From the NCBI GenBank assembly GCA_012523595.1, contig JAAYIG010000087.1:1-43899 (forward strand): a stretch of 43,899 nucleotides of DNA. Direction: 5' to 3'. Both the position numbers and the translations under genes were made by a program. The notes beneath the pieces were generated by a model that was given only the letters and a program-made list of their open reading frames with translations, had not been told where the DNA came from and searched no databases. Source of the stretch: Fibrobacter sp. (GTDB lineage: Bacteria; Fibrobacterota; Chitinivibrionia; Chitinivibrionales; Chitinispirillaceae). Positions 17,201-35,210 of the stretch are shown here, piece after piece. Positions within the stretch are counted from its first letter, which is position 1. Each line of letters starts with the position of its first letter.

Positions 17201-17969
17201 AAGAGTAAAAGCTCTGGGTAAAAAGAAAAGTAAAGAAACCGAGTTCTGGACCTGTCTTTTCAAAGCTTCCACAGGAGCGTTTTCTGATATTTCTGTTTTT
17301 GGCGCATCCGAAGCCGCCTCTGATGGCTATGATACTTATGACTCCCCAAGACCGCCATCGATTCATTCACAGTTTAAAATCGGTTTTTCTCATCCTGACT
17401 GGGGAAATGACCTTTATATGTCAGATATAGTTGGTTTGAAAAAGGGATCTCATTCCTGGATGCTGAAAATAAAAAGTACGACCGGAAAGCCGGTTACCCT
17501 TTCCTGGGAGAAAGATGGGAACAACAGTGGAAGCCTGATCCTGAGAGACCCGGTAAGTGGAACCATTATAGATATGAACAGATCAGCCACTTACACCTTC
17601 TCTCTGAATAGTGGTGAAGAAGAAAGGGAACTGGAAGTAAGCTGGAATCAGAATTGTGAGTTTCCTGCAGTAAAGGAACTTAACAGCTGGTCATTTACTA
17701 CAGCAAAAACCGGAGCTGGTACAGCATTGAAAATCCAGTACACTGTTCCTTCCTCGGTAAAAGGAGATTGCCCTGTATTCATTGGAATTTACGATATCAG
17801 CGGTCGCTCTGTTTATGAGCTTGTAAATGAGCGCAGGAGGGCGGGAAAGTATACTGTAACCTGGGAGGGAACCGGCAGGATGGGATCAGAAGTTTCCAGA
17901 GGAATGTATATCGCCCGATTTAAGACTCCGTCATATTCTAAAACAAGAATTGTAAATGTTATCAGGTAA
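14286..17969 (+). CDS. Secreted GH9 cellulase, multidomain, with sorting-type C-terminus
   Basis: A 1227-residue secreted family 9 endoglucanase that cleaves beta-1,4-glucan. In order: a signal peptide (to about 30, cleaved near SHAGAA), the CelD-type Ig-like domain (SVENIRLNQLGFYP start, to about 120), and the alpha/alpha barrel (about 125-580) with catalytic Asp in YDAGD (192-195), the His-His-Arg signature in NPHHRPS (498-500) and the acid Glu553 in TNEVAINW. A fibronectin-III-like domain follows (about 590-680), then beta-rich modules including a GWNCVGNPFPFPV motif seen in type-9-exported proteins, and a FlgD-like sorting tail (IYDISGRSVYEL, SRGMYIARF). A TTG at 14244 with GGAG upstream is an alternative start. 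The next gene follows 16 bases after the stop. Confidence 0.93.
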   Translation: MMICHQLKRFFMLSLPIIVFFALLSHAGAASVENIRLNQLGFYPAGPKIAVVVSPETWYFSIKSPDLQTTYYSGELSSQKYWTSSGENLKIADFSGFTREGTYVVYVNGIGASYPFSIRNDIHSALSRGLIRAFYYQRASAPLPAKYAGIWQRDGGHFDDYVIVHNSAASDPRKEGARKAGEVFSAPRGWYDAGDYGKYVVNAGITTYSLLLLYQQFSTYFDTLNLNIPESGGLLPDLLDEIKWEMDWLLKMQDPADGGVYHKLTGPNFLGDLMPASASETRYFIGKGSAATFDFAAVCALAYRIYRDFIPSFADSCLEAAKYAFSWGLEHPDSTFTNPPDIVTGEYGDRNCSDEHFWAAVELFLATGDSAYSHDSKIYQKSYGSPAWPDVGMLGFYSMAVTVDDSLSKSRVLSLANSFRSRIKSSQYQTTVGNGDFYWGSNGVVANYGMATLVAYLLSKDPSYLESSIHSLDYLLGRNATGYSFVTGFGSRSARNPHHRPSTADGIPDPIPGFLVGGPNNQSRSGEYCPANSYPIFPAKAWLDNNCSFTTNEVAINWNAPAAFLAGGLEAIFNTSEFDLKDLYEKRVPDTIAPQSSLFRVSRCGPDEALITLTTTESTVVAIEYSTDPSFSTTGSIIIPCADSTDVTINGLIPSQVYYVRCTFIDVSGNFSAKIDSLSTIPSPLYFSSIYSPEISKYRIGEDLRISFSGSEGITASLLFSEGGKPGVDTLGFKYDGNLYNVQIPGEKVTVSGIIYSILLIKESDTLLTARRSIAPESVSLTVQSFTSPKTYRMVSIPLIYSPVSSYSVFKTALGDTSKWRYYGYESISGEYIRFDEIRSGEGGWLYHTESRSFTHEANGIKPDTLFPVSLKKGWNCVGNPFPFPVFWDNSLVKKGNLLIRITDVSASRFMRRQYFTYEDKYPDTWNNGEYFSNRDLVKHVYNDTARLYPWQACWVYVETDSVTCFINPASERVKALGKKKSKETEFWTCLFKASTGAFSDISVFGASEAASDGYDTYDSPRPPSIHSQFKIGFSHPDWGNDLYMSDIVGLKKGSHSWMLKIKSTTGKPVTLSWEKDGNNSGSLILRDPVSGTIIDMNRSATYTFSLNSGEEERELEVSWNQNCEFPAVKELNSWSFTTAKTGAGTALKIQYTVPSSVKGDCPVFIGIYDISGRSVYELVNERRRAGKYTVTWEGTGRMGSEVSRGMYIARFKTPSYSKTRIVNVIR

Positions 17970-17985
17970 TTTGAGGAGAAGTAAA

Positions 17986-18684
17986 GTGACAGGTTACAGT
18001 ATATCGAAATTTGTTGTCCAGGTGATGATCTCTGTTTTTTTTCTGACCTCAGGCATTGCTGCTCAGGAGACAGTTGATACAACTGCAGTAAAGGATTCCA
18101 TGAATTTATCAGCCGGATCATCTGAAGCCGACACAGTTATCGCTTCCGGTGAGCAGGATGCTTCCCGGGATTCATCACTTGATGGGTCAGATGCGGAAGC
18201 AGGAGCATCCCTGGAGGCAAATGATTCCCAAACCGATGCAGCCTCTGTTGAACCGGAAAATAATGATACTTCTGCTTCACAGGTAAAGGCTGAACCGGAG
18301 AAAGAGGATAATCAATCCGGGCAGCAGAGTGGATCGTATTACGGTGGTGAAGCATACAGGGCTCAGAGCATGCAGAGAAGGACTGTTACGGTTGATGTGG
18401 AGAATGCTGCTGCCAGAAAAGAACTTTCAGCCGATTCTGTGAGGACTGCTTTAACAAAGCAGGCAGCTAAAACTGACGATATGGTAAAACCTGTTCCGCA
18501 AAAAGTATATGGAAAAAAGACTTTTGAATTCTCGAAACTGAAAAGATCCGAAAAAGTCTTCCTGTTTACCGCAGCATCATCGGCTGTCGCTGGAGGTGTC
18601 ATCACAGCAATAATAGTGAATTCCCTGAGAAATGTAAAAAGCGACTGGGGAATTCCCGAACCACCTCCACCTCCGGGACATTGA
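17986..18684 (+). CDS. Acidic secreted protein with C-terminal membrane helix, unknown function
   Basis: A 232-residue protein with no recognised family. Residues 1-26 are a signal peptide (FVVQVMISVFFLTSGIAA). Residues 30-115 form a Ser/Asp/Glu/Ala-rich, probably disordered acidic linker. Residues 120-190 are more ordered (YYGGEAYRAQSMQRRTVTV). A membrane helix follows at about 198-222 (VFLFTAASSAVAGGVITAII), and the end is PEPPPPPGH. The GTG at 17986 is chosen because GAGGAG lies seven bases upstream; this also removes an overlap with the GH9 gene. The 16-base gap makes it co-transcribed with the cellulase, so a role in anchoring, export or display of that enzyme is possible but unproven. 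Confidence 0.75.
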   Translation: MTGYSISKFVVQVMISVFFLTSGIAAQETVDTTAVKDSMNLSAGSSEADTVIASGEQDASRDSSLDGSDAEAGASLEANDSQTDAASVEPENNDTSASQVKAEPEKEDNQSGQQSGSYYGGEAYRAQSMQRRTVTVDVENAAARKELSADSVRTALTKQAAKTDDMVKPVPQKVYGKKTFEFSKLKRSEKVFLFTAASSAVAGGVITAIIVNSLRNVKSDWGIPEPPPPPGH

Positions 18685-18762: not shown

Positions 18763-19545
18763 TTACCTCTTGATCCACTCCTTGTGTATATCAGGGATAT
18801 CATCCAGGAGCTGAACAGTGTGTTCACTCTTAGGTGACAGAGTTACATCGTCCGGCGGACCCTGCTCAACTATCTTTCCTTTGTACATGATGAAAAGACG
18901 GTCACTTACATAATAGGCCAGACCTATGTCATGTGTGATAAAGACGATGGTCATCCGGAGTTCCTCCTTGAGTTTCATCAGATAATCAAGGATATTTGCT
19001 CTCACACAGGCATCCACCATACTTGTAGGTTCATCAGCAATAAGAACCTTCGGTTTGAGTATGAAAATCCTTGCCAGAAGCATACGCTGCATCTGTCCAC
19101 CTGAAAGCTCAAACGGATATTTTCCTTCGATCTCAGGTGGTTTGATATTCACAGCCAGAAGGGCCTGATCGACTCTGTCCTCCATCTCCTTGTCGGATGG
19201 CTTCTTTTCCAGAATTCCGAAAGATGCCTTCAGTTGAGAGCGGATTGTAAAGAATTGATTGAAACAACTGAAAGGATCCTGAAATACAGGCTGCACTTCC
19301 CTCCAGTGCTTCCGCTGATTCACAATCTGCTGACCATTGTAGAGGAATTCACCTGAGGCAGGATGTATAAGTCCGAGCATAATTTTGGCCAGAACACTTT
19401 TTCCGCAGCCAGAACTGCCAACAAGAGAAACTATCTCCTCATCCGCAATTGTAAAACTGACATCATCCACAGCTTTGACCATCTTTTTTCCATGGCCAAA
19501 AGTACAGGTAATGTTTTTCGCCGTAAAAATATCCTTATTCTGCAT
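18763..19545 (-). CDS. ABC importer ATPase (DppF/OppF type)
   Basis: A 260-residue nucleotide-binding subunit of the dipeptide/oligosaccharide importer class. Walker A is GSSGCGKS (43-50), the Q-loop Gln is in VFQDP (near 89), the signature is LSGGQ (147-151), Walker B is VLIADEP (167-173), and the switch His is in FITHD. Length is shorter than usual OppF (about 320) because the C-terminal oligopeptide-transporter domain and its cysteines are missing. Its start overlaps the preceding ATPase gene by 11 bases, implying coupled translation. It is last in a five-gene operon. The substrate is inferred from the locus to be cello-oligosaccharides rather than peptides. Confidence 0.92.
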   Translation of the reverse strand: MQNKDIFTAKNITCTFGHGKKMVKAVDDVSFTIADEEIVSLVGSSGCGKSVLAKIMLGLIHPASGEFLYNGQQIVNQRKHWREVQPVFQDPFSCFNQFFTIRSQLKASFGILEKKPSDKEMEDRVDQALLAVNIKPPEIEGKYPFELSGGQMQRMLLARIFILKPKVLIADEPTSMVDACVRANILDYLMKLKEELRMTIVFITHDIGLAYYVSDRLFIMYKGKIVEQGPPDDVTLSPKSEHTVQLLDDIPDIHKEWIKR

Positions 19546-20560
19546 AGTCGCACCTCACCTGTCTATCACCCACGATGCGTATTTCCTGCTTGTTGACATG
19601 ACACTCTTTCCGGGCGACAGGACAGCGCTCTGCAAAGCGGCAACCGGCAATCGGTTTAGCCAGATTCGGTGGCGCTCCTTCTATTGCGACCGGTTTTTTC
19701 TGTTTTTGACCAGGCTCAGCACTGAGCATCGCGCCCATCAGTGCCCTGGTGTAAGGATGGCGCGGATCAAAGATAATCTGCTCTGTCGTACCGACCTCAA
19801 CAAACTCACCCGCATACATGATCGCGATTCTGTCAGAAACATGACGCAGAAGGGGCAATTCGTGAGTGATAAAGATCATGCTGGAGAAGATCTCTTTATC
19901 AAGCAGGTCAAATATCATTTTGATCACTGCTTTCTGAGTGGTCACATCAAGTGCCGATGTCGGTTCATCAGCAATAACCATCTGTGGATTCAGAAGGGTT
20001 GAAATCGCGATGACAGATCTCTGACGCATTCCTGCAGTGATCTGAATCGGATAAGAATTAAGAATCGATTCATCCATCCCGATCAGGCGAAAGCGCTCCT
20101 TGAGGCGATCATAGATCTCCTTTTTATTGGAACCCATCTCATGGCTTTCGATCATGTCTGCGGCAAAGTCTTTTATTTTGCGGGTAGGATTGAGAGAGTT
20201 AAATGCACCCTGAGGGATCATGGTGATTTTTCTTCCCAGTACGTTTCTTCTGATATCACTGGGAGTACGTCCCATCAGTGATTCGCCTGCTACCCTTACA
20301 TCACCGCTGGTGGGATTGAGGGGAGGGATAAAAAGACCCATGCATCCGTTTACCAGAGTCGATTTTCCGCATCCTGATTCACCAGCCACACCCAGAATCT
20401 CACCTTTTTGCATGGAAAAAGAAACTCCGGACACAGCCGGTATCTTATCTCCAAAGCGGGTGAGATAATGCAAATGAAGATCCTCAACCTCGAAAATGGG
20501 CGTAGACTTACTTTCCTGTGCTATTTGCGATTCGCTGGTCCTGCTTTGAACATCTAACAT
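19535..20560 (-). CDS. ABC importer ATPase (DppD/OppD type)
   Basis: A 341-residue nucleotide-binding subunit. Walker A is GESGCGKST (60-68), the Q-loop is at MIPQGAFNSL (Gln117), and Walker B is MVIADEPTSALD (from 194). The C-terminal oligopeptide-transporter domain with spaced Cys residues (AGCRFAERCPVARKEC) is present, as in DppD/OppD, which may hold an iron-sulfur cluster in relatives. Odd: the ABC signature reads ITAGMRQR (174-181) instead of LSGGMRQR. The Shine-Dalgarno AGGAGA lies eight bases before the ATG. Fourth gene of the operon. Confidence 0.93.
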   Translation of the reverse strand: MLDVQSRTSESQIAQESKSTPIFEVEDLHLHYLTRFGDKIPAVSGVSFSMQKGEILGVAGESGCGKSTLVNGCMGLFIPPLNPTSGDVRVAGESLMGRTPSDIRRNVLGRKITMIPQGAFNSLNPTRKIKDFAADMIESHEMGSNKKEIYDRLKERFRLIGMDESILNSYPIQITAGMRQRSVIAISTLLNPQMVIADEPTSALDVTTQKAVIKMIFDLLDKEIFSSMIFITHELPLLRHVSDRIAIMYAGEFVEVGTTEQIIFDPRHPYTRALMGAMLSAEPGQKQKKPVAIEGAPPNLAKPIAGCRFAERCPVARKECHVNKQEIRIVGDRQVRCDYAE

Positions 20561-20572
20561 ATTACTAATCTC

Positions 20573-21409
20573 CTATTTGCGCAGGCGGGGGTTGAAGACA
20601 CCTTCCATCGATGTATTGATTACATACAAAGCGAAGGCAATAATCGTTACCAGAACCATCGCCGGTATAAAAGCCCACCACGCTCCATCAGTAAGAGCTT
20701 CATTGCGCATGGCCTGATTTAAAATGGTGCCCAGTGATACGGTGTCAAACGGACCCAGGCCGATCATGCTGATTGCTGCCTCGGAAAGAATTCCGGAAGC
20801 GGTCTGCATGATAAAAACCATGAAAACATAGGACAGAAGATAGGGAAGAATATGCATGGAGACGATTTTAAATGTTCCGGCGCCATTTACCTTTGCCAGA
20901 GAGATGTGGTCACGGCTCTTAAGGCTCGATGCCTGTGCGCGGACCGCACGAGCACTCCAGGTCCAGGTAGTCAGTCCGATAAGCAATGCTATCAGAGACA
21001 ACGAACGCCCCTCTTCCATACTGCTGCTGACAAGAATTAAAACCACAAACTGAGGAATAACAATGAAAAGGTTTGTGACCATGTTTATAATATCATCAAC
21101 CAGACCGCCTTTAAACCCGGCATAAACCCCAAGAAATGTACCTGTAATTGTAGCGATAATTCCTGCAAGAAATCCAACGTACAGAGATGACTGGAGTCCC
21201 TTGACAAGAAGAGACAGCATGTCGATGCCCATATGATCTGTGCCGAAAATACGTTCACCGGATGGTGGCATATAAGGTCCACCAACTCTGATGTTGGTAT
21301 TGATGTCGAATATCATGGGAAAAAACAACGCAATAAAGATAGTGACAAGAAATAAACCTGTGCCTATTAAGAAGGCAGGTGTTTTCAATAGATTCATCAA
21401 TAACTTCAT
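20573..21409 (-). CDS. ABC importer permease (DppC type)
   Basis: A 278-residue inner-membrane permease with about six membrane helices. The N-terminal helix (LLKTPAFLIGTGLFLVTIF) is followed by the family loop with FGTDHMGIDMLS, and the cytoplasmic coupling (EAA-like) region lies in AKVNGAGTFKIVSMHILP. The ATG at 21409 is chosen: it begins four bases after the stop of the upstream permease gene and fits the family N-terminus, whereas the longest frame would overlap that gene. Pairs with the DppB-type permease to form the channel. Confidence 0.92.
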   Translation of the reverse strand: MKLLMNLLKTPAFLIGTGLFLVTIFIALFFPMIFDINTNIRVGGPYMPPSGERIFGTDHMGIDMLSLLVKGLQSSLYVGFLAGIIATITGTFLGVYAGFKGGLVDDIINMVTNLFIVIPQFVVLILVSSSMEEGRSLSLIALLIGLTTWTWSARAVRAQASSLKSRDHISLAKVNGAGTFKIVSMHILPYLLSYVFMVFIMQTASGILSEAAISMIGLGPFDTVSLGTILNQAMRNEALTDGAWWAFIPAMVLVTIIAFALYVINTSMEGVFNPRLRK

Positions 21410-21413
21410 AATC

Positions 21414-22481
21414 TTATTTTCCCCCCAATCCTGCTTTGACACGTGGATCAAGGAAACCGATCAGAATATCCACAGTAAAATTGGCAATCAACACACAAAT
21501 CGTAATCAGCAGTGTACATCCCTGAATAAGTGGGTAGTCATTTCCCTGAATCGCTGTAAGCACAGCCATTCCTAAACCGGGGTAGGAAAAGATCATTTCA
21601 GTTATGAGTGCACCGCCAACCATCGTTCCCAGAGTCAAAGCCAGCCCGGTAAGCTGCGGCAGCATGGCATTGCGGAACATGTAGAAGAGAATCTTATTCT
21701 CTTTCATGCCCAGCCATTTTGCGTATTTTATGTAATCGGTTCCTAATTCGTAAATTGACATCGAGCGCATCCCGATTGCCTGGCCTCCAGCTGAGATCAG
21801 GAAAATGGAGAGGAACGGAAGAACGTAGTGATATGCCGCACTGGAGAAAAATTTCCAGCTGAAGCTTGGTATTATGTCTCCGGCATAGCCCCCGATTGCA
21901 GGAAAAATGGGCCAGACGATTCCGAAGAGATAAACCAGGATCATTCCAAAGGCAAAAAATGGTATCGCACTGGAAAGCAGAGCAGCAGGGAAAAGCGCTT
22001 TGTCGAAAATTCCCCTGCGATAAGCTGCCAGAGCTCCCAGAACATTACCGATTATCCATCCAAATATAATGGTAGGGATCTGAAGAGCGAGAGTCCAGGG
22101 AAGTGCATCACTGATGATTTCAGTAACCTTCTTGGGATAATTCAGAAATGAAGTCCCAAGATCTCCCCTCATGCTCATGCTGATATAGTTTATGAACTGC
22201 TTAAGTTTTGAGGTACGTACAGGTTTACCGGAAGCATCACGAATGATGCTTCCGCTTTTATCAACTTCAACAAGTCCGAATTCTTTAAGGTATGACTCTT
22301 CTTTTTCCTTTGCTGCTTCGGTATCCAAACCCGCTCCCACCTTGGCCATAATAATATCCACCGGGTTACTGGTGCCGAGCCTGGGGAGAAAGAAGTTGAT
22401 GGTTACTGCAGCAAGGAAGGTAATGAAATACCATACCGCCCTGCTTGAAATGTATTTAAGAGTTGGATATCGCTTCAGCAT
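21414..22481 (-). CDS. ABC importer permease (DppB type)
   Basis: A 355-residue inner-membrane permease. The N-terminal helix (VWYFITFLAAVTINFFLPRL) is typical of DppB. A periplasmic insert of about 60 residues (VGAGLDTEAAKEKEESYL onwards) precedes the helix bundle; similar inserts occur in sugar-importing members of this class such as those of Thermotoga. The EAA-like coupling loop is in YIKYAKWLGMKENKILF. AGGAG lies five bases before the ATG, and the gene starts nine bases after the binding-protein gene ends. Confidence 0.92.
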   Translation of the reverse strand: MLKRYPTLKYISSRAVWYFITFLAAVTINFFLPRLGTSNPVDIIMAKVGAGLDTEAAKEKEESYLKEFGLVEVDKSGSIIRDASGKPVRTSKLKQFINYISMSMRGDLGTSFLNYPKKVTEIISDALPWTLALQIPTIIFGWIIGNVLGALAAYRRGIFDKALFPAALLSSAIPFFAFGMILVYLFGIVWPIFPAIGGYAGDIIPSFSWKFFSSAAYHYVLPFLSIFLISAGGQAIGMRSMSIYELGTDYIKYAKWLGMKENKILFYMFRNAMLPQLTGLALTLGTMVGGALITEMIFSYPGLGMAVLTAIQGNDYPLIQGCTLLITICVLIANFTVDILIGFLDPRVKAGLGGK

Positions 22482-22489
22482 GAATACTC

Positions 22490-24295
22490 CTATTTCGCAG
22501 TGGGTTCAATTTCCCAGAGTGCCTTGGTCCCGACACCGAAGCAGGGAATCTGCGGGGGTGTGTAAGGATTCTGTTCATTCGGGAAATTTGTCCAGCTTTT
22601 TACACTGAATTCATAGAACTGTTCAGGTCTGTAAACCAGCGGAAGGCTTGGTTGATCCTGCATGAAAATAACATTCAGTTCCTGATATGCGGCAACTTTC
22701 TGTTCCTGTTCAGTCAGTGTAGGAATCACTCTCAGCAAGCTGTCCACTTTCGGATTATATTCCTTGGTACCAGGCTGATTGTAGCGACCCTGGTTCTCAT
22801 TCATCTTTTCTCCGGCGGGCTTCCAGTTTCTCGATGACATCACAGATTCAAAGCGAGCCCAGGGCTGAGAGGGAGTGACATTTACTGACGGGGCGTGGAG
22901 CAGAAGATCCCATTCGGCTGTCGGCATGCTGTTGAAGTAAACAGATGCATCCACAAAACCTTCCCGGACATCAATTCCGGCAGCCCTCATCCCCTTGACA
23001 GCGATCTGAACCATAGATTCCCAGTCGGTCCATCCTGCAGGTGACCTGATAAGCAGAGTAGGAATTTTCTTACCCTTGGGATCGAGCATGTAATCCAACT
23101 GCCCATCAGCCTTGAAAACCGATTTGTATCCTGCATCCACAAGGATCTTCTTTGCCGTCTCAGGGTCATATTTGCATCCGTACTTTTCTGTATCATCTTT
23201 TGAGAAATAGGGTTCCTCGGTTCCAAATGGGAGAATAAGACCGGGTTTGAGATCAAGACTGTACTGAGAAAAAGCAAGATCTTTGACATCAGCATAGTTT
23301 ATGGCATGTGCCATGGCCTTGCGGAAATTCTTGTCTGAAAGAGGAGCCTTGGTGTGGTTAACCATCAGCATAACCATCGCAGCAGGAACAAAATAGGGTT
23401 CCTTTGAGTACCAGGTACGAACACCGTTTTTCTCTTTCTGCCAGATACGGGGGATAAATGTAGAGGAGATATCAAGATTCCCCTGCTGCAGAGAGATGCT
23501 GAAATGATCATTGCTTTTATAAATCGGGTGAATGATGTACTGAGGTTTTGGGAGCTTACCATCATGAAGAACAGTTCCCCAGTAATCATCGCGCCGCTTT
23601 AAAACGATCTTCTCAGCGGAATAGCTGTCCAGCGTATATGGTCCTGAGACAACCGGGTTTTTATCCATTTTGTCTTTCTGAACTGCTGAGAGGTCTCCAA
23701 GCGAATCGAGCATCGGCTGAAGAACGTGTTTGGGTATAATGCGGACAGCCTGGAAAAAGTCCAGAACTACAAGAGGATTGTTTCTTTCCTTATTAATAGT
23801 GAAATTGATCCTCTCCGCTTTTCCACCCTCAATTTCCACATTATCCACTGTGATGTTTGAGATATGATTCCATACATAGGCGGTAGGAGCTCCTGGATAC
23901 TTCTTTCCTACTTCATAGGTGAATACTACATCTTCGGCTGTAAGAGGTTTCCCATCGCTCCAGCGAGCGCGTGAATCCAGAACCGCAGAGATCACATCCG
24001 GGGTTTTCTCATAAGAGCGTGCCAGGAGAGGTTCTATGTCACCAGTCAGAGAATTGAAATTCATCAGTGGTTCATACATCAGATTGTAGTTGCCGCCAAC
24101 AGGAAATGCAGGCCAGTCGTTAAGGGGGTTGAATGTGTTTGGATCTCCCCACTGGAACCCGGCTATATAAAGGGTCTTACTGCGGGGGAAACCGGTTTCT
24201 CCTTCATTTTTCTGGCCGGATTGGCAGGACAAAAGACCGCAGAAAACTGCGCTGGCGAGCAAAACTTTAAATGGCAGTAAGCTCTTCAGATTCAT
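22490..24295 (-). CDS. Extracytoplasmic solute-binding lipoprotein (family 5)
   Basis: A 601-residue substrate-binding lipoprotein of the SBP_bac_5 class. Residues 1-25 end in a lipobox (GLLSC), so Cys25 would be lipidated. The family core starts at KTLYIAGFQWGDPNTFNPL, with RWSDGKPLTAEDVVFTYEV and the KNFRKAMAHAINY helix typical of DppA/OppA relatives. The ATG at 24295 is chosen because GGTGGAGA precedes it and it starts the signal peptide exactly; the open frame extends 83 codons upstream without family resemblance. In cellulolytic Thermotoga and relatives, proteins of this class bind cellobiose or longer oligosaccharides; the same is inferred here from the surrounding glucanases. First gene of the operon. 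Confidence 0.93.
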   Translation of the reverse strand: MNLKSLLPFKVLLASAVFCGLLSCQSGQKNEGETGFPRSKTLYIAGFQWGDPNTFNPLNDWPAFPVGGNYNLMYEPLMNFNSLTGDIEPLLARSYEKTPDVISAVLDSRARWSDGKPLTAEDVVFTYEVGKKYPGAPTAYVWNHISNITVDNVEIEGGKAERINFTINKERNNPLVVLDFFQAVRIIPKHVLQPMLDSLGDLSAVQKDKMDKNPVVSGPYTLDSYSAEKIVLKRRDDYWGTVLHDGKLPKPQYIIHPIYKSNDHFSISLQQGNLDISSTFIPRIWQKEKNGVRTWYSKEPYFVPAAMVMLMVNHTKAPLSDKNFRKAMAHAINYADVKDLAFSQYSLDLKPGLILPFGTEEPYFSKDDTEKYGCKYDPETAKKILVDAGYKSVFKADGQLDYMLDPKGKKIPTLLIRSPAGWTDWESMVQIAVKGMRAAGIDVREGFVDASVYFNSMPTAEWDLLLHAPSVNVTPSQPWARFESVMSSRNWKPAGEKMNENQGRYNQPGTKEYNPKVDSLLRVIPTLTEQEQKVAAYQELNVIFMQDQPSLPLVYRPEQFYEFSVKSWTNFPNEQNPYTPPQIPCFGVGTKALWEIEPTAK

Positions 24296-24656: not shown

Positions 24657-24742
24657 CTGCATGAACTAATGTGAATATATTTTCCACTATTAAAGGGAAC
24701 AAACAATTGCACATACTACACACGACTCTCAAGGAGGGTTGG

Positions 24743-27121
24743 TTGATAAGTACCAGAAAAATTCGCAGCTTTATTCTTCTGCTCTCTGCAGCAGGATTTG
24801 TGATGTCTACCAATGCCCAGGGTTCTACAGAGCCCGATTCATCGGCATTAAAAGAGATGTTGGATTCGCTAGGATTGTCTGAAAATGATCTTGAAGCGAA
24901 GGTAAGATCTACGCTGATGTTTGGAGGTTCCATGCCGGTTTCTTTTTCCGGTGAGGGAAGAATTAAGTTCCAGTACCATCAGTTGCTCGAAAATCCCCTG
25001 TTTATGGAACAGGACCGGTCCTATGTTCAGTCTAACTGGGAAGGTAATGAGTCGTTTTTGCGTTTTGGGATGGTTGCCAGGGCAGGCCGCAATACAGTGC
25101 TGTGGTCAAAAATCGGCTTTCAGCATACACTTCCCGGAAATCATATAAATAAAAAGGAAGTTGGAGACACAATCCCGCCGACCAGGCATGATAAGACTGG
25201 TGAAGCAGCCATTATACATGAAGATATGAGTGCGGGATTAGCAATCCGCACGGTGCCGGTTTCTTTCTGGTTGAAACTGGGAGCGGTTCACTGGGTCGAG
25301 GCATCTCCTCTTACAATCTGGAAAGCACAGCCCAGAATGTTTGCGTGGGAGTATCTGCCTTACGAGATAGAGCAGCCTATCGCCCGTTACTATGAGTACA
25401 ACATTGCTAAAGGTGAGAGGATAGGGCGTGCCGCCTGGAATAAAAAGGCTTTCCAGGGGATAAATCTGGAGAGCATCAATCTTCCGGGGAATCTTTATTT
25501 CAACCTCTTATATAGTACCTATGAGCGATATGATAATTTCGAGCGTGAATATGTCGATTTTACAAATGACCTTGCATTGGCAGATGTTAACGGTCTTGTT
25601 AAGGGTAAAGGAATCGGAGACACCTACAGGCATCTTTTCCATAGCCGTCTGGCAGCGATTGAAGCTCTTGGAAGGTTGACTCCCGGGCTTAATTTCATGG
25701 CATATCTCTATGATGATGAAATATTCAAGAACAATCTCTTCCGGGGTGTGTTTGGCTACAGCGAAACTGTTGCAGGGAGAAAAGCCTTTATCAAAGAGCC
25801 CATTATTGGATCAATAGACCTGAAGGGCCCCATTACGGACAATCTCAGTATTCATGCAGATGTGGCGATGAGTTTTATCGACACGTTGTGGCGTACAGCG
25901 GATTCTGCTGGTTCAAAGGTCGTTGTGAATGAAACGCACAAATGGGGTCTTTTCAATCCTGCCTTTTACACCAGGCTGGAAAGCAAATATCTGCTTCCCA
26001 TCAATCTTGACCTGGCTGTGATCGGCAAAGATTTTTACTCACCGCTCTCTTTTGCGACACCTGTGGATGCGTTCTTTCCCTTTGGAGCAAACCTGTTTGG
26101 GCCGGGTAAATTTATCGGACGTGGAGAAGCTTCTCCCTATACTAAAAATATGGCTGGGTTTAACCTTCAGGTGGCTCCATCATTAAAAGGTTACGGGCAT
26201 TTGAAGATTACCTGGGGACAGCATTTCCAATTGGAATCTTCACGTGATCTGATCTATTTCCCGTACCGTCTGAACGGGCAGGATCTGTTCAGTCTCTTCC
26301 ATTCCTCTTATAACCGCTGGGGAAATGATCCTATAGATATTTCTCTGTTTAATGACTCCAAATATAGATATAAGAGAAGGTTGGGAGATGAATCTTTCAA
26401 GTCAAATCGTGATAGATTACCGGTTGGTTTTGAGGGTGGAGGACTGCGTTCTGACTATCTTGGGATGTACGAAGGGTTTGTGCCTTATGAAAACATCGAT
26501 CAGGCTAAAGCAAACCTCAGTTTGAGTGGAAAGAGTAATGTTTTTTATGAAGGTAACAACAAAAACAGCAACAAAGGTGATAGTGCCTATATTTATGCCC
26601 CGGCGGGTGGCGATACTGTATACAGTGCTAATGCATTTGTGCCTCAACATCAAAAGTTCACCTTTAATTTTGATATAGACTGGGCCTATGACTTTGGACC
26701 ACTGCTTGGTTACCCGCGGGAGATCTTTTTCGGCATTTACTATGCGTTAAACGGTGTCTCCACCTCATTTATGCCCCTGGCTTTTTCCGACAAGCCCAAA
26801 GATATGTTGCTTTGGGGAACCTATCTGAGGATGGAGCCGGCCATAGCAATTACTTCCAAGTTTTACATTCTTGGTTTATTAGGTTATGAAAACTGGAGAT
26901 CACAGAAAGCGTATACTGCCAATGTGGTTAATGTATCGTCCGTTGAACACAAGCCCATCGATTACAGGGATTTCGCTGTGGGGCTCGGTTTTGACTGGGA
27001 TATGCTCGCCAGAGTCGGGTTGCACGGAAGAGTAAAGTATATGCAGCATAAGGATGTTAATATTCCTGAAAACGATTACAAAACGCCAGTTATTTCAACT
27101 GAAATAAAGATGTGGTTCTGA
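24743..27121 (+). CDS. Large outer-membrane beta-barrel protein, putative oligosaccharide porin
   Basis: A 792-residue predicted outer-membrane protein. Residues 1-25 form a signal peptide (RSFILLLSAAGFVMSTNA then Q). A short helix follows (SALKEMLDSLGLSEND), then a long run of alternating amphipathic strands with many aromatic residues, ending in the strand VISTEIKMWF with a terminal Phe, the usual signal for barrel assembly. The start is TTG at 24743, chosen because AAGGAGG lies five bases upstream and the signal peptide then begins properly; the open frame opens 24 codons earlier. No TonB box or plug domain was seen. Its placement, divergent from the importer, suggests uptake of glucan fragments; this is inference. 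Confidence 0.75.
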   Translation: MISTRKIRSFILLLSAAGFVMSTNAQGSTEPDSSALKEMLDSLGLSENDLEAKVRSTLMFGGSMPVSFSGEGRIKFQYHQLLENPLFMEQDRSYVQSNWEGNESFLRFGMVARAGRNTVLWSKIGFQHTLPGNHINKKEVGDTIPPTRHDKTGEAAIIHEDMSAGLAIRTVPVSFWLKLGAVHWVEASPLTIWKAQPRMFAWEYLPYEIEQPIARYYEYNIAKGERIGRAAWNKKAFQGINLESINLPGNLYFNLLYSTYERYDNFEREYVDFTNDLALADVNGLVKGKGIGDTYRHLFHSRLAAIEALGRLTPGLNFMAYLYDDEIFKNNLFRGVFGYSETVAGRKAFIKEPIIGSIDLKGPITDNLSIHADVAMSFIDTLWRTADSAGSKVVVNETHKWGLFNPAFYTRLESKYLLPINLDLAVIGKDFYSPLSFATPVDAFFPFGANLFGPGKFIGRGEASPYTKNMAGFNLQVAPSLKGYGHLKITWGQHFQLESSRDLIYFPYRLNGQDLFSLFHSSYNRWGNDPIDISLFNDSKYRYKRRLGDESFKSNRDRLPVGFEGGGLRSDYLGMYEGFVPYENIDQAKANLSLSGKSNVFYEGNNKNSNKGDSAYIYAPAGGDTVYSANAFVPQHQKFTFNFDIDWAYDFGPLLGYPREIFFGIYYALNGVSTSFMPLAFSDKPKDMLLWGTYLRMEPAIAITSKFYILGLLGYENWRSQKAYTANVVNVSSVEHKPIDYRDFAVGLGFDWDMLARVGLHGRVKYMQHKDVNIPENDYKTPVISTEIKMWF

Positions 27122-27155
27122 CAAATAACAGTCACTGTTCATAAAAGGAGTATCA

Positions 27156-29144
27156 ATGCTCAGAAGAATCGTTGCACTAATAAGCGTGGGACTTATTTCC
27201 GGAGTCTATGCTGATCAGGGGAAACTGGATCAGATACAGAAAACCCTCGAGAGCATAATGGCTAAGGCAGGTATCTCGATTGGCGGCGAGTTCAGGTCTC
27301 AATACCTGGGAGCCAAGATCAGTGGAGACAGCTTGGATCAATCCAAGAGGACAAGAGAGACAAATGAGTTCACATCAGTGGACTTTGATATCAAAGCCCG
27401 CCCGAACGAATATATTTCCGGGCGGATCGTTTTCAGGATGCATCAGAACTGGCAAAACTTCTTCTCTGATATCTCCAACCCCATCTTTTCAAGATGGATC
27501 AGTATAGACGGAAACCCGATGGATATGTTTCGTTTCAATATTGGTGATTTCAAAGAAAAGTATTCCCCCCTGACACTTTATTCACCGGATATTGATATTC
27601 TTTACGAACCCTATATTTTTGCCAGGCAGCGGGAAGTTGCTATGGACGAACTTTTTATAGGTAATAACTATCGTATTCTTCAGGGTATAAATTTTGGATT
27701 TGATGCAGAAGTAGAGCCCCTTTTCAATGAGTTTCATCTGGGATTGATTGGTGCGCGCCTTAGAAGTGCTGAAACAGATATTCAGAATGGAAGTAAGGTC
27801 ACTGACATTTATGAACAGGTTTACAATGAAGACACTGCCATGACAAAGTACATGGTTGGAAGTAATCTGGATATGACTTTCCTTAAGGGAATTAACTTAG
27901 GTGGAACTTACCTTTTCACTTTCGATCATAAGGGAAGCCTGGCTTTTAACAAACCTTCTTACATTGCTCATTATGATACTGTTGCGAGGTTTAAACAGGA
28001 AAAACTTCATGTTATTTCTGTCCGTCCCGGTGTGGATATTGGAAAATTTATCGGCTCAGAGTCCCTGGGGCTTGGTGTAAAGGCGGAAATAGCTTTTTCT
28101 GTTGATGATTCGACGATGTTTGACTCTGTAGGTGTGGACACACTCGGAAAAGCTGTCAATGATTTCATAGACACAGTTACAACTGGTGTAGCATTGAATG
28201 CAGGTCTGGACTTCAGTTTTTCCGCCAGTGACATTTTTGGATTACGTGCAAATGTCTCTTACATGTCTAACGATGATGCTTTCAGGAATCCTCTGGCTCA
28301 GACACCTTCCTTTATCGGTCAGAGCATAATGAACAATGAGGTCACAAGAATCAGGGTGGACACCACCGGTGCAAAGGATACAGTACGTAATTACTCCACT
28401 TTCGATGCGCTATACAATACTGTATTCAAATTTACTACCAAAGATAACATTTTGTGGTCAAAGTCCCCATACATGAAAACCTCTTATTACCGCGGGATAA
28501 TGAATAAGCAGGAGCTTGACGCTTTTGTCGATGGTTACTGTGATCCCACAGTGCAGTTGGTGCTTCCTCTGGGACCTGCAACACCCAATCGCTCCGGTAT
28601 AAACGGTAATATTAAAGCTTCTCTTTTAAACAACGGGATTGAATTGAGTGGATTACTGGCATTGCTCAAAGAGAAGGAAGTATCAGTTGATATGCCAGGA
28701 TTTGAAAAGACGAAATTTACTCAAATAGGTGGCGGACTGAAAATTGACTTCAGCAAGTTCCTCACTGTCTTCAAGTATACTACCGAGATTTCCGGCAGCT
28801 ATGTTTCATCTGCTGCTGAAAATACAGGAATTGAAAACTTCGAAATCACTTCGAATCTTATCAATCTCGGTCTTAATTATCAATTCTGGAAAAGAGGCGC
28901 TCTGCTTCTTGGTATGCAGCTTATCCAGAACGAAGCAGTTCTTCTGGGGAATACAACAAAACAGGACCTGACCCACTGGTCTGCCGGTATCGAATGGAAA
29001 GTTGCCGACGGTGCATCGGTTGTAACCTCTATCGGGCAGATAATCGCCGATAATGATGACAACAGATGGCTGATCGGTACTGGCTCCGGGAGGGATGATT
29101 TCACGCAGACGCTTATGGATGTATTTTTAAGAGTAAAATTTTAA
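27156..29144 (+). CDS. Second outer-membrane beta-barrel protein
   Basis: A 662-residue predicted outer-membrane protein with the same layout as its upstream neighbour: signal peptide (1-19, LISVGLISGVYA), a short helix (KLDQIQKTLESIMAKAG), a first strand GGEFRSQYLG, then many amphipathic strands and a C-terminal aromatic end (LMDVFLRVKF). AAAGGAG lies six bases before the ATG, and only 34 bases separate it from the first barrel gene, so they are co-transcribed. Acidic periplasm- or surface-facing loops contain several Asp-Thr-Val-type repeats. No known family name is certain. The pair may be two porins, or porin plus surface receptor, for the same substrate. Confidence 0.75.
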   Translation: MLRRIVALISVGLISGVYADQGKLDQIQKTLESIMAKAGISIGGEFRSQYLGAKISGDSLDQSKRTRETNEFTSVDFDIKARPNEYISGRIVFRMHQNWQNFFSDISNPIFSRWISIDGNPMDMFRFNIGDFKEKYSPLTLYSPDIDILYEPYIFARQREVAMDELFIGNNYRILQGINFGFDAEVEPLFNEFHLGLIGARLRSAETDIQNGSKVTDIYEQVYNEDTAMTKYMVGSNLDMTFLKGINLGGTYLFTFDHKGSLAFNKPSYIAHYDTVARFKQEKLHVISVRPGVDIGKFIGSESLGLGVKAEIAFSVDDSTMFDSVGVDTLGKAVNDFIDTVTTGVALNAGLDFSFSASDIFGLRANVSYMSNDDAFRNPLAQTPSFIGQSIMNNEVTRIRVDTTGAKDTVRNYSTFDALYNTVFKFTTKDNILWSKSPYMKTSYYRGIMNKQELDAFVDGYCDPTVQLVLPLGPATPNRSGINGNIKASLLNNGIELSGLLALLKEKEVSVDMPGFEKTKFTQIGGGLKIDFSKFLTVFKYTTEISGSYVSSAAENTGIENFEITSNLINLGLNYQFWKRGALLLGMQLIQNEAVLLGNTTKQDLTHWSAGIEWKVADGASVVTSIGQIIADNDDNRWLIGTGSGRDDFTQTLMDVFLRVKF

Positions 29145-29300: not shown

Positions 29301-32300
29301 ATGAATCGAAATCTTCGCCTTACAATTGCTGCAGTTGCATGCATGATGTTTAGCGCAAGTGCAGTATTCCCCGGCTGGCTTAAGTTCAAGCCTCTGAAAA
29401 AAGCCGAAGAAAAGAAAAGCGAGTCTTCCGTAGATCCTCGTATCATGTATCGCTTCTTCGATGAAGACTTTGTTTCCGGTGGGTATGCCTACTGGTATCC
29501 TGAAAACTCCAAGGTTTTTATTCCAGAGGAGTCGGGAAAAAACGGTGAAGTGGCAATCGAATTTGATCTGGATGAGAAGGATTATTCCGGTGGTTCTGTC
29601 TGCCTGTATAATCTTCTTTACGACTTGCGTCCGTTGTATGCTACAGGAGCGCTCCAGTTCTGGATCAAAGGGAATATGGGTGGAGAGATCGCCTGGGCTG
29701 CTCTTGTTGATGATGAAAATGCAGACGGGAAGAAAACTGTGGTCCGCTTGCCTCTTCAGAATTATGGAGGCATCTCTAAAGAATGGAAACTTATCTCCAT
29801 TCCACTTTCCGCTTTCGGAAAAAGGGGAGTGTTCTGGGACGCAAAGAAGAGGGTGGAAGTGCCTGAAAGATTTCAGTGGGATGCTGTTTGTGAATTCCGC
29901 ATTGAAATAAAGAAAAATGAAAATCCTGATTTCCGGGCCTGGGTTGATGACATCTTTATTCTCAGGGATGTATACGAACCGGTTGAGGAAAAAGAAGAGC
30001 AGTATTGGGATGAGCGGGAGGATATGATCGATTCTCCTCCGCTTGCCTCAAGACCCGAAGTAAAAGATGTACATAAGGTATTTATAGATGAAACACCCGG
30101 GGGCGGATTCGTTTATGTTTACGGAGGAAAAACCGCTTATAAGGTTATTTCGGGGGCATCAAAAGACAATAAGGGAATTCTGGCCTGTTATCTTGATAAT
30201 GGAGATTATTCCGGAGTTACTCTTGCTTTGGGTAATGGAGCAAGTATCAATGTAGAGCCTCTGAAAAAAGCAAAAGCCGCAGGTCTTGCTTTCTGGGCAA
30301 AAGGAGCCCCGGGGGTTGATAAAATCTATGTTGGTATTCTCGATGATGAATCTGATGGGGCGAAAGTGCAGACAAAAGTAGCCCTGGGGGATTTTGGCTC
30401 ATTGGATACTACATGGAAATATTTCATGATCCCTCTGCGCAGATTCCAGGATGTTGGAAAGTACTGGGATGATAATAAAAAGGCTGAAGTTGTTGGAGAT
30501 GTCAAATGGAATCAGGTAAATGAAATCAGATTTTCCAACAACAAAGCCGAAAACAAGGTACCTGAAGGGGAACCGGTAGCCTTGTATGTGGATCAGATCA
30601 CTTTTATTGAAGAAATTCCGGGCTATATTGATCCTGAAGAGTATTGGGCTAATTTCGAGTCTGATGCTAAGGATATAATACTGCATGATTTCGAGGGTTC
30701 AGAAAGTCCCAACTGGGAAACCGCTAATGGCCCCAAATCGGAAATCAGTTATAAGCTTGTGAAGAGTGAGGCTAGAAATGGCGGAGAAAATGCTCTGGCT
30801 ATTACCTTCAAGATGAATGACTGGTGTGATGCTGTATTCAACTATGAAACAAACAACAGTGCACCTGAACTCAGGGACTGGAGCAAGCACTGGGGTCTTA
30901 AATTTGAAATGTACACATCCAAACCCTATCAGGGTATCAATGTTCAGGTTAATGATGCCGGTAATGAGGTGTGGATCGCGAGTGCCGGATGCGGAAAAGG
31001 ATGGCATGAGGTGCTTGTACCTTTCAAGGCTTTCTACAAATTTCCCTACTGGCAGCCGGAAGATGCTGAGCAGAACGGGAAATTTGATATGCAGGCAATA
31101 AGAACTATCGATTTCAAACCTTCCGGTGAAGGTACATCCGGAACTTTTCTGATCGATAATGTGAGGCTGACAAATGAGAGGACTGCCTACGAAGCGCCTG
31201 TGGCCGAAAAGATAACTGTCAAGATTACCGGTGACATGGGTAAAGTTGTTACACCTGCAATAAATGACGGTATTTTCGGCATAAACGCGGCTCTGTGGGA
31301 TGGCGATCTTCTCAAGCCCCAGACGGTGGATTATGTTAAAGCTGTCAACCATGCGGTACTTCGTTACCCGGGTGGTCTGAGAGCTGATGAGGACCACTGG
31401 AAAGAGGTCCTTGCAAAGAAAGACTGGATGGTTGACACCGATGAATTCCTGGAATTCTGTAAGCAGACAAATACAACTCCCATGATTACCGTTAACTTCG
31501 GTACAGGTACTGCAGAAGAAGCTGCCGAATGGGTAAAACATGTAAATGTGACCAAAAAGGCAAATGTAAAATACTGGGAGGTAGGTAACGAGCTTTATGG
31601 AGACTGGCACGCTAACCACTGTACTGCTGAAGAGTATGGTAAGAGGGCTGCTGAATTCATAAAGAAGATGAAAGAAGTGGATCCTTCGATTCTGGTGACT
31701 GTGGTCTGGGTCCTTGAAGGTGAATGGAATAAAGTGGTATTCGAGAACACCAAAGATCTGGCTGACGGAGTGAATGTACACCATTATCCTCAGCATGCTG
31801 GTGAAGAAAATGATGCTGCGTTGCTGGCAGCCCCGCAGACTCTCAAATCAATTCTTCCTGGTGTACGGAAGCAGACGGAGGAATATGGGGTTCCGGGAAA
31901 GAAGTATGAGATCTGGCTCACAGAGTGGAACTCTGTTGATTTCAAACCAGGACCTCAGACACTGGGTATTGTAAACGCTATGTTTGTCGCGGATTACCTT
32001 GGAGAACTGGCTGTTCAGAATATAGAGCAGGCATCTTACTGGGATATCCATAACGACATTACAGAGCAGGGTGGTGACTACGGATATCTATCCAGAACCG
32101 GTGCGCCGGATGGGGACAATGTGCCGCGTCCTTCATACTTTGCTTTTAAAATGGCAAGCGAAGCTCTTCGCGGAAAGTTACTGGAGACAGAATCCGAAAA
32201 TGATAATGTGTCGACTTATCTGACCGAAAACAATGGAAAGAAAGCCCTGATGGTTATCAATAAGATGCCTAAGACGAAAGCTGTGATCGATCTGAATATA

Positions 32301-32444
32301 CCCGGTTTCAGTGGAAAAGCCACATTGAAGCAGTTGCGTTCAGATAACATGAAAAATGGTTACAGTTCAGAAACCATCGATGTCGCTGAGGGTGGTGAGA
32401 TTACCCTGCCTGCATGGTCTGTGACGACGATTACAATCCAGTAA
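29301..32444 (+). CDS. Secreted GH51 endoglucanase with three N-terminal binding modules
   Basis: A 1047-residue secreted enzyme. Residues 1-24 are a signal peptide. Three beta-sandwich modules of about 170-190 residues follow (45-230, 255-445, 457-630), the first two clearly related (a repeated pattern of LQFWIKG/LAFWAKG, then VRLPLQNYG/KVALGDFG and a Trp-Lys strand); they resemble CBM30/CBM11-type cellulose-binding modules. The catalytic domain (about 640-1047) is clan GH-A: acid/base Glu764 in WEVGNELYG and nucleophile Glu875 in IWLTEWNS. Architecture and size match Fibrobacter succinogenes endoglucanase EGF/CelF (recall, not searched); most other GH51 enzymes are arabinofuranosidases. No sorting tail is seen, unlike the GH9 protein. 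A strong terminator follows. Confidence 0.88.
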   Translation: MNRNLRLTIAAVACMMFSASAVFPGWLKFKPLKKAEEKKSESSVDPRIMYRFFDEDFVSGGYAYWYPENSKVFIPEESGKNGEVAIEFDLDEKDYSGGSVCLYNLLYDLRPLYATGALQFWIKGNMGGEIAWAALVDDENADGKKTVVRLPLQNYGGISKEWKLISIPLSAFGKRGVFWDAKKRVEVPERFQWDAVCEFRIEIKKNENPDFRAWVDDIFILRDVYEPVEEKEEQYWDEREDMIDSPPLASRPEVKDVHKVFIDETPGGGFVYVYGGKTAYKVISGASKDNKGILACYLDNGDYSGVTLALGNGASINVEPLKKAKAAGLAFWAKGAPGVDKIYVGILDDESDGAKVQTKVALGDFGSLDTTWKYFMIPLRRFQDVGKYWDDNKKAEVVGDVKWNQVNEIRFSNNKAENKVPEGEPVALYVDQITFIEEIPGYIDPEEYWANFESDAKDIILHDFEGSESPNWETANGPKSEISYKLVKSEARNGGENALAITFKMNDWCDAVFNYETNNSAPELRDWSKHWGLKFEMYTSKPYQGINVQVNDAGNEVWIASAGCGKGWHEVLVPFKAFYKFPYWQPEDAEQNGKFDMQAIRTIDFKPSGEGTSGTFLIDNVRLTNERTAYEAPVAEKITVKITGDMGKVVTPAINDGIFGINAALWDGDLLKPQTVDYVKAVNHAVLRYPGGLRADEDHWKEVLAKKDWMVDTDEFLEFCKQTNTTPMITVNFGTGTAEEAAEWVKHVNVTKKANVKYWEVGNELYGDWHANHCTAEEYGKRAAEFIKKMKEVDPSILVTVVWVLEGEWNKVVFENTKDLADGVNVHHYPQHAGEENDAALLAAPQTLKSILPGVRKQTEEYGVPGKKYEIWLTEWNSVDFKPGPQTLGIVNAMFVADYLGELAVQNIEQASYWDIHNDITEQGGDYGYLSRTGAPDGDNVPRPSYFAFKMASEALRGKLLETESENDNVSTYLTENNGKKALMVINKMPKTKAVIDLNIPGFSGKATLKQLRSDNMKNGYSSETIDVAEGGEITLPAWSVTTITIQ

Positions 32445-32698: not shown

Positions 32699-35134
32699 AT
32701 GAAATTCGGATTTTTTGATGACGAGAAGCGGGAGTATGTAATCACTACACCCCAGACACCTTACCCCTGGATCAATTACCTGGGAGTTTCAGATTTCTTC
32801 TCTCTTATTTCCAATACCGCCGGAGGATATTGCTTCTATAAGGATGCAAGACTGAGGAGAATACTCCGTTACAGGTACAACAATATCCCCATTGACAATG
32901 GAGGGAGATATTTTTATATCCGGGAGAACGATGATTTCTGGTCTCCGGGATGGAAACCCGTAAAGAAGGGGTTGACAGATTATCAGTGCCGTCACGGAAT
33001 GGGTTATACCATAATAAAAGGCATGAGAAACGGGTTGTCGGCAGAAGTCCTTTACATGGTGCCGGTGGATGCCAATTGTGAGATTCACAAGGTAACTCTT
33101 ACAAATACCACAAAAAAGGCAAAGAAGTTTACACTGTTTTCTTTTGTGGAATTCTGCCTCTGGAATGCTCTCGATGACATGACAAACTTCCAGCGGAATT
33201 TCAGCACAGGCGAGGTGGAAATCGATGGCTCAGTAATCTATCATAAGACGGAATACCGGGAGCGCAGGAACCATTTCGCTTTCTATACTGTAAACAGACA
33301 GATATCAGGTTTCGATACTGATCGTGAGGTTTTCCTGGGCAGGTACAATGGACTGGAAAATCCGGATGTGGTTATTGAGGGAAAGTCAAAAAACTCTGTG
33401 GCTGACGGATGGTCGCCTGTAGCATCTCACAGCATAAACATAACACTCAATCCTCAAGAGAGTGCTGAGCTGGTTTTTCTGCTCGGATATGTTGAGAACA
33501 AGGAAGATGAGAAATGGGAAGCTCCGGGCATTATCAACAAGAAAAATGCGAAGAGCTTGATGGAGAGATTTTCAACCAGTGCCGAAGTAAATAAAGCCTT
33601 TGATGATCTCAGGGTTTACTGGGATAATCTCTTATCAAGATACACATTGGAGAGCAAGGATGAAAAGCTCAATAGAATGGTCAATATCTGGAATCAGTAT
33701 CAGTGCATAATCACTTTTAATATGTCAAGAAGTGCATCGTATTTTGAATCCGGTATCGGAAGAGGAATGGGGTTCCGTGATTCCAACCAGGATATCGCCG
33801 GTTTCGTGCATCAATTACCCGACGGTGCCCGTCAGAGAATAATCGACCTTGCATCGACTCAGTTTGAGGATGGCGGTGCATATCATCAGTATCAGCCTCT
33901 TACTAAAAAAGGAAACAACGAAATAGGCGGTAACTTCAATGATGATCCGCTGTGGCTGATCTATGCGACTGCAGCTTATTTGAAGGAGACCGGGGACTGG
34001 AAGATTCTCGAGACGAAGGTTCCTTATGACAACAATCCCGAAAAAACAGGTACTCTTCTTGACCACCTCACAAAGTCTTTCTATCATGTGGTCAATAACA
34101 GGGGACCTCACGGGCTGCCGCTGATCGGGAGAGCAGACTGGAACGACTGTCTCAACCTGAACTGTTTTTCAAGCACACCGGATGAATCGTTTCAGACCTG
34201 TACAAACAAGGATGGTAAAAGGGCTGAGTCGGTATTTATAGCCGGAATGTTTACAGGGATCGGAAAAGAGTATGCTAAGATTCTAAGGCACCTGGGAAAA
34301 GAGGAAGAGGCTATACAGGCTGAAAAATATATAGCCGAGATGAAAGGTGTTGTGGAAGAGCAGGGATGGGATGGTGAGTGGTTTTTGCGGGCATACGATG
34401 ATTCCGGAAATAAAGTGGGAAGCAAAGATAACCCTGAAGGAAAGATCTTCATCGAGCCTCAAGGGTATTGTATTATGGGCGGTATCGGGCTTGAGGACGG
34501 TAAGGCTAAAAAAGCGCTGGAATCCTCACGCAAATATCTCGATACCCGTCACGGGCTGGTGCTTGTCAATCCTCCATTCTCAAGGTATTATTTAAATCTC
34601 GGAGAGATTTCATCGTACCCTCCCGGGTACAAGGAAAATGCAGGAATATTCTGTCACAACAATCCCTGGATAATAATTGCGGAAGCGATAATGGGTGAGG
34701 GTGATTATGCTTTTGACCACTACCGGAAGATTGCTCCTGCGTACAGGGAAGAGATCAGTGATGTGCACAGGATGGAGCCCTATGTGTATTCACAGATGAT
34801 AGCAGGAAAGGATGCCGGGAGGCACGGGGAAGCAAAGAATTCCTGGCTTACAGGTACAGCAGCCTGGAATTTCGTGGCTGTTTCCCAGTGGATCCTTGGG
34901 ATACGTCCGGATTACGATGGGCTTATAATTGATCCCTGTATCCCATCAGACTGGAATGGATTTACGGTTACAAGGAAGTTCCGGGGTGCAACTTACAGGA
35001 TTACCGTCAAGAATCCATCACATGTGAATAAAGGAATAAAGTCTCTTGTTGTTGATGGTGCGGCTGTGGAAGGAAATCTTGTCAAAGCTTTCACTGATGG
35101 TGGTGAACATAAAGTGGAAGCGGTGATGGGGTAA
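32699..35134 (+). CDS. Cellobiose phosphorylase (GH94)
   Basis: An 811-residue cytoplasmic enzyme (no signal peptide) that splits cellobiose with phosphate into glucose 1-phosphate and glucose. Seen: the family N-terminus [14 protein letters not shown], the beta-sandwich and linker, and an alpha/alpha barrel with catalytic Asp483 in ADWNDC. Against the Cellulomonas numbering known for the family, acceptor-site Glu649, Tyr653, Lys658 and His666 align with Glu636, Tyr640, Lys645 and His653 in [15 protein letters not shown]...H. Length is typical (about 810-820). GGAGG lies five bases before the ATG. It conserves the glucosyl bond energy, which suits life on cellulose. Followed after 70-odd bases by a paralogue. 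Confidence 0.94.
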
Positions 35135-35210
35135 GGTTTTCTGACAGGTGTTAATGCAAACAGTAATTAAACCCTAATGAATTCCATTTGTTGAGTTTGA
35201 AAGGATGGCT

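Follow-up and report, generated by a model that had tools for sequence, protein, structure and literature searches.

We analyzed a 43,899-nucleotide stretch of DNA from Fibrobacter sp. (GenBank assembly GCA_012523595.1, contig JAAYIG010000087.1, positions 1 to 43,899), here called the window, which carries two adjacent genes, A (24743 to 27121, + strand, 792 amino acids) and B (27156 to 29144, + strand, 662 amino acids), each predicted to encode a large outer-membrane barrel. Together with a secreted protein bearing a CBM30 carbohydrate-binding module and encoded beside them, A and B probably form a unit for the capture and entry of cello-oligosaccharides that works without a TonB receptor. 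Gene order, conservation, profile evidence that A and B are paralogues, their barrel-like periodicity, the CBM30 partner and the neighboring ATP-binding cassette (ABC) importer and GH94 genes support this unit. An earlier note on this DNA had suggested that the pair could be the first component of a non-TonB oligosaccharide conduit and drew no link to the CBM30 glycan binder that travels with it. The link to uptake is supported by the gene neighborhoods described below, and a conduit role is plausible.

A conserved gene pair and its CBM30 partner

The genes around A and B were compared in 40 loci from a set of 60 related genomes and in 15 more distant loci, all picked from matches and not at random; the A-positive genomes G018, G021, G022 and G023 lie outside the 40-locus set. 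Four loci (L061-L064) had the same lengths and scores as L068, L067, L066 and L065, respectively, and the duplicates were excluded from the family counts. B directly followed A in 39 of the 40 loci and in all 15 of the more distant ones, and a CBM30-bearing gene stood directly beside the pair in 38 and 14 of them, respectively (52/55). The three loci showing no CBM30 neighbor (L094, L104 and L130) are all contig ends.

Two arrangements were found. Type 1, with the order A, B, CBM protein, occurs in the window and in most genomes outside the Fibrobacter family, and type 2, with the order CBM30, A, B and a further gene B', occurs in the Fibrobacter family (f8) and also in genomes G162 and G163 of family f10. 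Both types are present in G162. A 36-row tree of B and B' joined the type-2 B proteins of the families f8 and f10 in one group (99/99) and put the B' proteins of the two families on separate branches.

Among 167 genomes of Fibrobacterota, the A family was present in 145 (80 of the 89 of good quality) and the B family in 146 (81 of the 89); the 60 relatives include 45 with A and 44 with B. A GH9 cellulase was encoded in 159 of the 167 genomes, and the eight genomes without one (G007, G024, G033, G035, G051, G052, G054 and G164) had neither A nor B, these being raw counts uncorrected for kinship among the genomes. The pair is thus a phylum-wide module of Fibrobacterota. A pattern search with exact peptides of A returned four loci (L061-L064), in metagenome assemblies labeled Chitinispirillaceae or 'Fibrobacter sp.'.

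So wide a distribution would also suit a housekeeping porin, and A and B could be ordinary general-diffusion or structural major porins that are merely co-regulated with cellulose genes. Their layout of signal peptide, helix and first strand is also that of porins with an N-terminal coiled coil, such as DcaP and OprP. This alternative is nevertheless improbable, as ordinary porins would account poorly for the fixed pairing with a CBM30 gene and for the absence of A and B from every GH9-less genome.

The partner in the window (29301 to 32444, + strand, 1047 amino acids) is a secreted CBM30-CBM30-CBM11-GH51-like protein of the Cel51A type, identified by Pfam (CBM30 3.6e-17, CBM11 4.4e-16) and linked to the pair by synteny and co-occurrence. 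Its CBM30 scored 63.3 bits against a Pfam cut-off of 27, compared with 48.7-84.2 bits for the shorter partners elsewhere; the clear Pfam result was accompanied by a weak match in the Protein Data Bank (PDB; 1wmx, E 0.11). The GH51-like region gave an ArfA-type NCBIfam match (5.3e-21) that is below cut-off. The N-terminal CBM30 module (29448 to 29966, + strand) was retained wherever the partner is seen. On the other hand, the 654-residue partner of L080 has CBM30 and CBM11 with no catalytic match, and CBM30 is the main match in the partners of L076 (443 amino acids), L083 (257 amino acids) and L122 (256 amino acids); in L076 and L122 weaker scores of the CBM11 type overlap it. A full Cel51A as the constant partner was therefore rejected, because the catalytic domain, and often CBM11, is missing in many loci. 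The constant part of the partner is CBM30 and the catalytic domain is dispensable.

Over the 60 genomes, A and the CBM partner (each in 45) occurred together except in G015 and in G039, where A is at a contig edge. Five GH51 relatives encoded on other contigs (G000:C91, G001:C232, G002:C193, G017:C200 and G015:C220) aligned only from about residue 223-243 and lack the first CBM30; four of them belong to genomes with A and B, and G015 has neither. The one in the window's own genome (G000:C91:38-2479) is a second GH51-type gene, located away from the pair.

The same invariance of the N-terminal CBM30 raises the alternative that the two proteins anchor or export the CBM30 protein (Cel51A type) at the outer membrane and so bring it to the cell surface, with the N-terminal CBM30 as docking domain and the passage of glycans not part of their task. 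The lack of this module in the off-contig GH51 relatives agrees with such a link. By eye, a lipobox was recognized in 15 of 24 type-1 partners, not clearly in that of the window, and in none of the 15 partners of the Fibrobacter family (an automatic pattern flagged the partners of the window, L065 and L066, which were not accepted by eye, and missed that of L070). Since nine type-1 partners and all those of the Fibrobacter family thus show no clear lipobox, they would need to be retained at the surface in some other way. In Fibrobacter succinogenes S85 the CBM30 protein and Cel51A were reported in the cell envelope on all substrates tested, the CBM30 protein on glucose and two celluloses (PMC4619616). 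However, the 15 lipoprotein-like partners would need no such anchor, two barrels of 660-800 amino acids are large for one, in f8 the full Cel51A-type gene is on another contig or far from the module, and sugar importers of two classes adjoin the pair. We consider this alternative rather unlikely.

Predicted barrels and paralogy of A and B

Gene A starts with TTG at 24743, preceded by the ribosome-binding site AAGGAGG at 24731-24737, and gene B with ATG at 27156, with AAAAGGAG just 5' of the start. Both products have a Sec-type N-terminal signal, as judged by eye, followed by a helical stretch and then by the motif GEGRIKFQY (residues 70-78 of A) or GGEFRSQY (residues 43-50 of B). Low-confidence AlphaFold2 models gave a weak hint of the helix at residues 34-42 and 47-58 of A and 21-37 of B; the earlier note saw in it a possible periplasmic handle or trimerisation segment. 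The earlier description of two tandem secreted proteins sharing a signal-helix-first-strand layout is confirmed.

The amphipathic character of the strands was assessed as family-averaged beta and alpha moments, with TonB receptors and four soluble families of the same loci as controls. The beta/alpha moments were 0.78/0.57 for A, 0.78/0.63 for B and 0.83/0.67 for B', close to the 0.80/0.64 of the TonB receptors, whereas in the soluble families beta was not, or hardly, above alpha (0.65/0.74, 0.71/0.86, 0.78/0.77 and 0.66/0.67). All 91 sequences in the alignments of the three families end in Phe (A 37/37, B 38/38, B' 16/16). A and B therefore show a Sec signal, amphipathic strands and a C-terminal aromatic residue, all features of outer-membrane beta-barrels. 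The earlier note spoke of very large barrels, and the strand periodicity and terminal Phe agree with this; a barrel fold is predicted for both proteins. The A family is also rich in aromatic residues (mean 13.9%, compared with 10.9-12.1% in the other families compared), a richness frequent in sugar-conducting proteins.

Pfam and NCBIfam scans of A and B of the window returned no family at E<=1. PDB sequence searches found no useful relative, and PDB profile searches gave no match for A and only a designed transmembrane barrel (E 0.53) for B. The generic Pfam family OMP_b-brl was weakly touched by 2 of 14 A relatives (best 0.024) and 2 of 19 B/B' relatives (best 8.6e-5), and the known sugar porin families LamB, OprB, Porin_O_P and DcaP were not matched by Pfam or by PDB sequence or profile search. 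A and B are a genuine and conserved pair with no counterpart in the family libraries searched.

Profile comparison with hhalign aligned A and B collinearly over 585 columns with P=1.9e-8 (Prob 95.4, or 91.2 with query and template swapped). The value improved to P=6.1e-10 when A was compared with B and B' together, and the signal was weak with B' alone (P=3.6e-4). In the controls, A gave P=0.22 with TonB receptors of the same phylum and 0.14 with reversed B, reversed A gave 0.21, and the best of 30 block-shuffled B profiles gave 0.02. B aligned with the TonB receptors in its C-terminal half, over 295 columns (3.1e-4), and part of the A-B signal may therefore be generic barrel likeness. Since all controls were at 3.1e-4 or weaker, the comparison supports the earlier proposal of distant paralogues and suggests a collinear homology closer than the general resemblance among barrels.

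In both families the best-conserved stretch shows little strand signal and includes the common pattern SPLT(I/L)...QGIN. It covers residues 177-245 of A (SPLTIW..AWNKKAFQGIN; 25271 to 25477, + strand) and, as its counterpart, residues 121-180 of B (SPLTLY..NYRILQGIN; 27516 to 27695, + strand), and could form an internal plug or constriction. Neither the Plug domain (PF07715) nor the barrel of TonB receptors was detected in A or B by Pfam at E<=1, and together with the P=0.22 of A against these receptors this led us to reject A and B as TonB receptors. The statement in the earlier note that the proteins have no plug domain thus holds in the TonB-receptor sense; it is less certain in a wider sense, because the conserved low-strand stretch may itself plug or constrict the barrel.

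Import genes and the proposed route of uptake

In the window, gene A is divergent from a complete importer of the Opp/Cbt type (18763-24295), all on the - strand. It comprises a family 5 solute-binding lipoprotein (22490 to 24295; SBP_bac_5 1.2e-52, LLSC lipobox by eye), two BPD_transp_1 permeases (21414 to 22481 and 20573 to 21451), an ATPase with an oligo_HPY domain found by Pfam (19535 to 20560) and a second ATPase (18763 to 19545). In 18 of 25 type-1 loci A directly adjoins importer genes or the binding protein alone, with the importer in the window, L065-L070, L072, L073, L078, L079 and L100-L102, and only the family 5 binding protein in L080, L081, L087 and L104. In four loci of f10/g39 (L121, L130, L131 and L132) a MalK-like ATPase and three more genes lie 5' of A. 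Pfam identified these in L131 as SBP_bac_1, two permeases and a MalK carrying OB and TOBE domains, together with a GH1 gene, and the other three loci were assigned by similar gene order. That importers of two different classes adjoin one and the same pair speaks more strongly than any other observation for a role in sugar uptake.

On the + strand of the window a GH9 cellulase (14244 to 17969) precedes the pair, and two GH94 phosphorylases follow the CBM30 gene (32699 to 35134, of the cellobiose/cellodextrin type, and 35205 to 37619). A phosphoglucomutase (11001 to 12809, - strand) would pass glucose-1-phosphate from the GH94 enzymes onward. We infer from these arrangements that A and B, as barrels without a TonB-receptor plug, would pair up and act in a physical complex with the secreted CBM30 protein. 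Cello-oligosaccharides, the putative substrate, would be captured at the cell surface by this complex and enter the periplasm through A and B, whose pore activity would allow diffusion or facilitated diffusion independent of TonB. The periplasmic binding protein and the ABC importer would then take over, and the GH94 phosphorylases and phosphoglucomutase would channel the imported sugars into glycolysis.

Several observations weigh against this route. The AlphaFold2 models, built from 5-row alignments only, had pLDDT of 35.2 and 34.5 and gave no usable structure. B is missing in 13 of the 159 GH9-positive genomes. No ABC gene adjoins the module in the 16 type-2 loci of f8; instead, in f8 loci such as L082, L083 and L088, the genes after B' encode a lipoprotein (by eye) and then GH18, the latter checked by Pfam in L083. 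In the type-2 locus of G162 (L122) the module is followed by a GH20 gene (15734-17686). The substrate of type 2 may therefore differ. In L122 a GH18 protein is also encoded some genes 5' of the module (2102-2992), and GH20 and GH18 around it hint at chitin-like substrates for type 2. In one study of S85 the CBM30 protein was reported only in the extracellular medium (PMC4668043).

TonB receptors also have to be considered. Their Plug domains were found in 59 of the 60 relatives, with seven matches in the window's genome, so that A and B need not be the sole entry route, and TonB/ExbBD proteins are reported to be up on cellulose in S85 (PMC6851124). The latter report, like the conserved low-strand segment common to A and B, could be taken to mean that the pair is a disguised TonB-dependent or otherwise energized system with residues 177-245 of A and 121-180 of B as its plug. 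The lack of Plug and receptor-barrel matches and the poor alignment of A with local TonB receptors, both given above, argue against it, as does the position of the segment, which is not N-terminal. We regard such a system as highly improbable.

Other genes of the window were noted as well. Just downstream of the GH94 genes, 37696-39408 (- strand) encodes a histidine kinase whose sensor domain is of the family 3 solute-binding type, a candidate sensor for the locus. A 242-amino-acid protein with no Pfam match is encoded directly after the GH9 gene (17956-18681, + strand), and a 739-amino-acid protein, also with no Pfam match (40554-42773, - strand), adjoins a DUF3078-like protein at 39614-40510 (below cut-off).

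Fibrobacter succinogenes S85 and known systems

The gene order of L083 and L085 matches that of S85, where Fisuc_1523/FSU_2005 is described as GH5 (PMC4619616), Fisuc_1525/FSU_2007 as a non-catalytic CBM30 protein, Fisuc_1530/FSU_2012 as GH18 with cellulose binding (both PMC3079729) and Fisuc_1531 as GH9 (PMC4668043). Since exactly four genes (A, B, B' and the lipoprotein) separate CBM30 and GH18 in L083 and L085, the locus numbering points to FSU_2008-2010 as the S85 genes for A, B and B'. FSU_2008-2010 or Fisuc_1526-1528 were named in none of the papers searched, a search of main texts covering few subscription journals, and searches on porin, CBM30 and cellodextrin uptake with Fibrobacter returned no paper on the A-B pair by title or start of abstract.

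The closest parallel in organization is SusC/SusD of Bacteroidota, in which a barrel gene is likewise fixed beside a secreted glycan binder, often a lipoprotein, and glycoside hydrolases. However, the A-B locus has two paralogous barrels, not one, with no TonB plug domain; its binder is CBM30, not SusD; and an ABC importer and phosphorylases follow. The unit may thus work like SusCD, but judged from its sequences it would not be a member of that group, as the defining TonB-receptor plug was not detected. LamB, OprB and the DcaP/OprP-type porins with an N-terminal helix resemble A and B in the signal-helix-first-strand layout, the sugar-gene neighborhood and the lack of a TonB plug, but A and B had no Pfam or PDB sequence or profile match to them, are much longer (660-800 amino acids) and occur in pairs or triplets.

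Cel51A of F. succinogenes (Fisuc_3111/FSU_0382) is reported as CBM30-CBM30-CBM11-GH51, the same domain order as in the window partner (PMC4668043). In the Fibrobacter family, however, the full-length relative lies away from A and B, which instead have a CBM30-only protein (Fisuc_1525/FSU_2007 in S85) as their neighbor. The importer of the window has the composition of the Cbt-type cellobiose ABC importers of Thermotoga (family 5 binding protein, two permeases and two ATPases), but is divergently coupled to an outer-membrane pair and its substrate is putative; homologues of Cbt-type importers are reported for S85 (PMC6851124). The PopA superfamily includes Fibrobacter outer-membrane proteins expressed in vesicles or on cellulose (FSU_2404 and FSU_0230), but these are described as 16-stranded, like the 353-amino-acid PopA, and have other locus tags (PMC12228718). 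On this description, with no alignment made, A and B were set aside as different proteins.

As a broader and more tentative possibility, the two barrels and the CBM30 protein, which is often a lipoprotein, may be a SusCD-like import machine that evolved without TonB receptors. One barrel might conduct and the other hold or gate, with the CBM30 binder of cellulose chains as a cap. Such a machine would be the ancestral way of bringing cellulose breakdown products across the outer membrane in Fibrobacterota, and its three-barrel version in Fibrobacter (CBM30-A-B-B') may serve another beta-1,4-glycan.

Fibrobacter is a major degrader of cellulose in the rumen, and section 7 of PMC6851124 states that cellodextrin transport in F. 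succinogenes, including the outer-membrane step, is unknown and that no MalA-like protein has been identified. Beside the unproven TonB proposal, the A-B module offers phylum-conserved candidate genes for the crossing of the Fibrobacter outer membrane by cellodextrins. If this holds true, Fibrobacterota would have a glycan import design parallel to SusCD, of relevance to rumen biology and biomass conversion.

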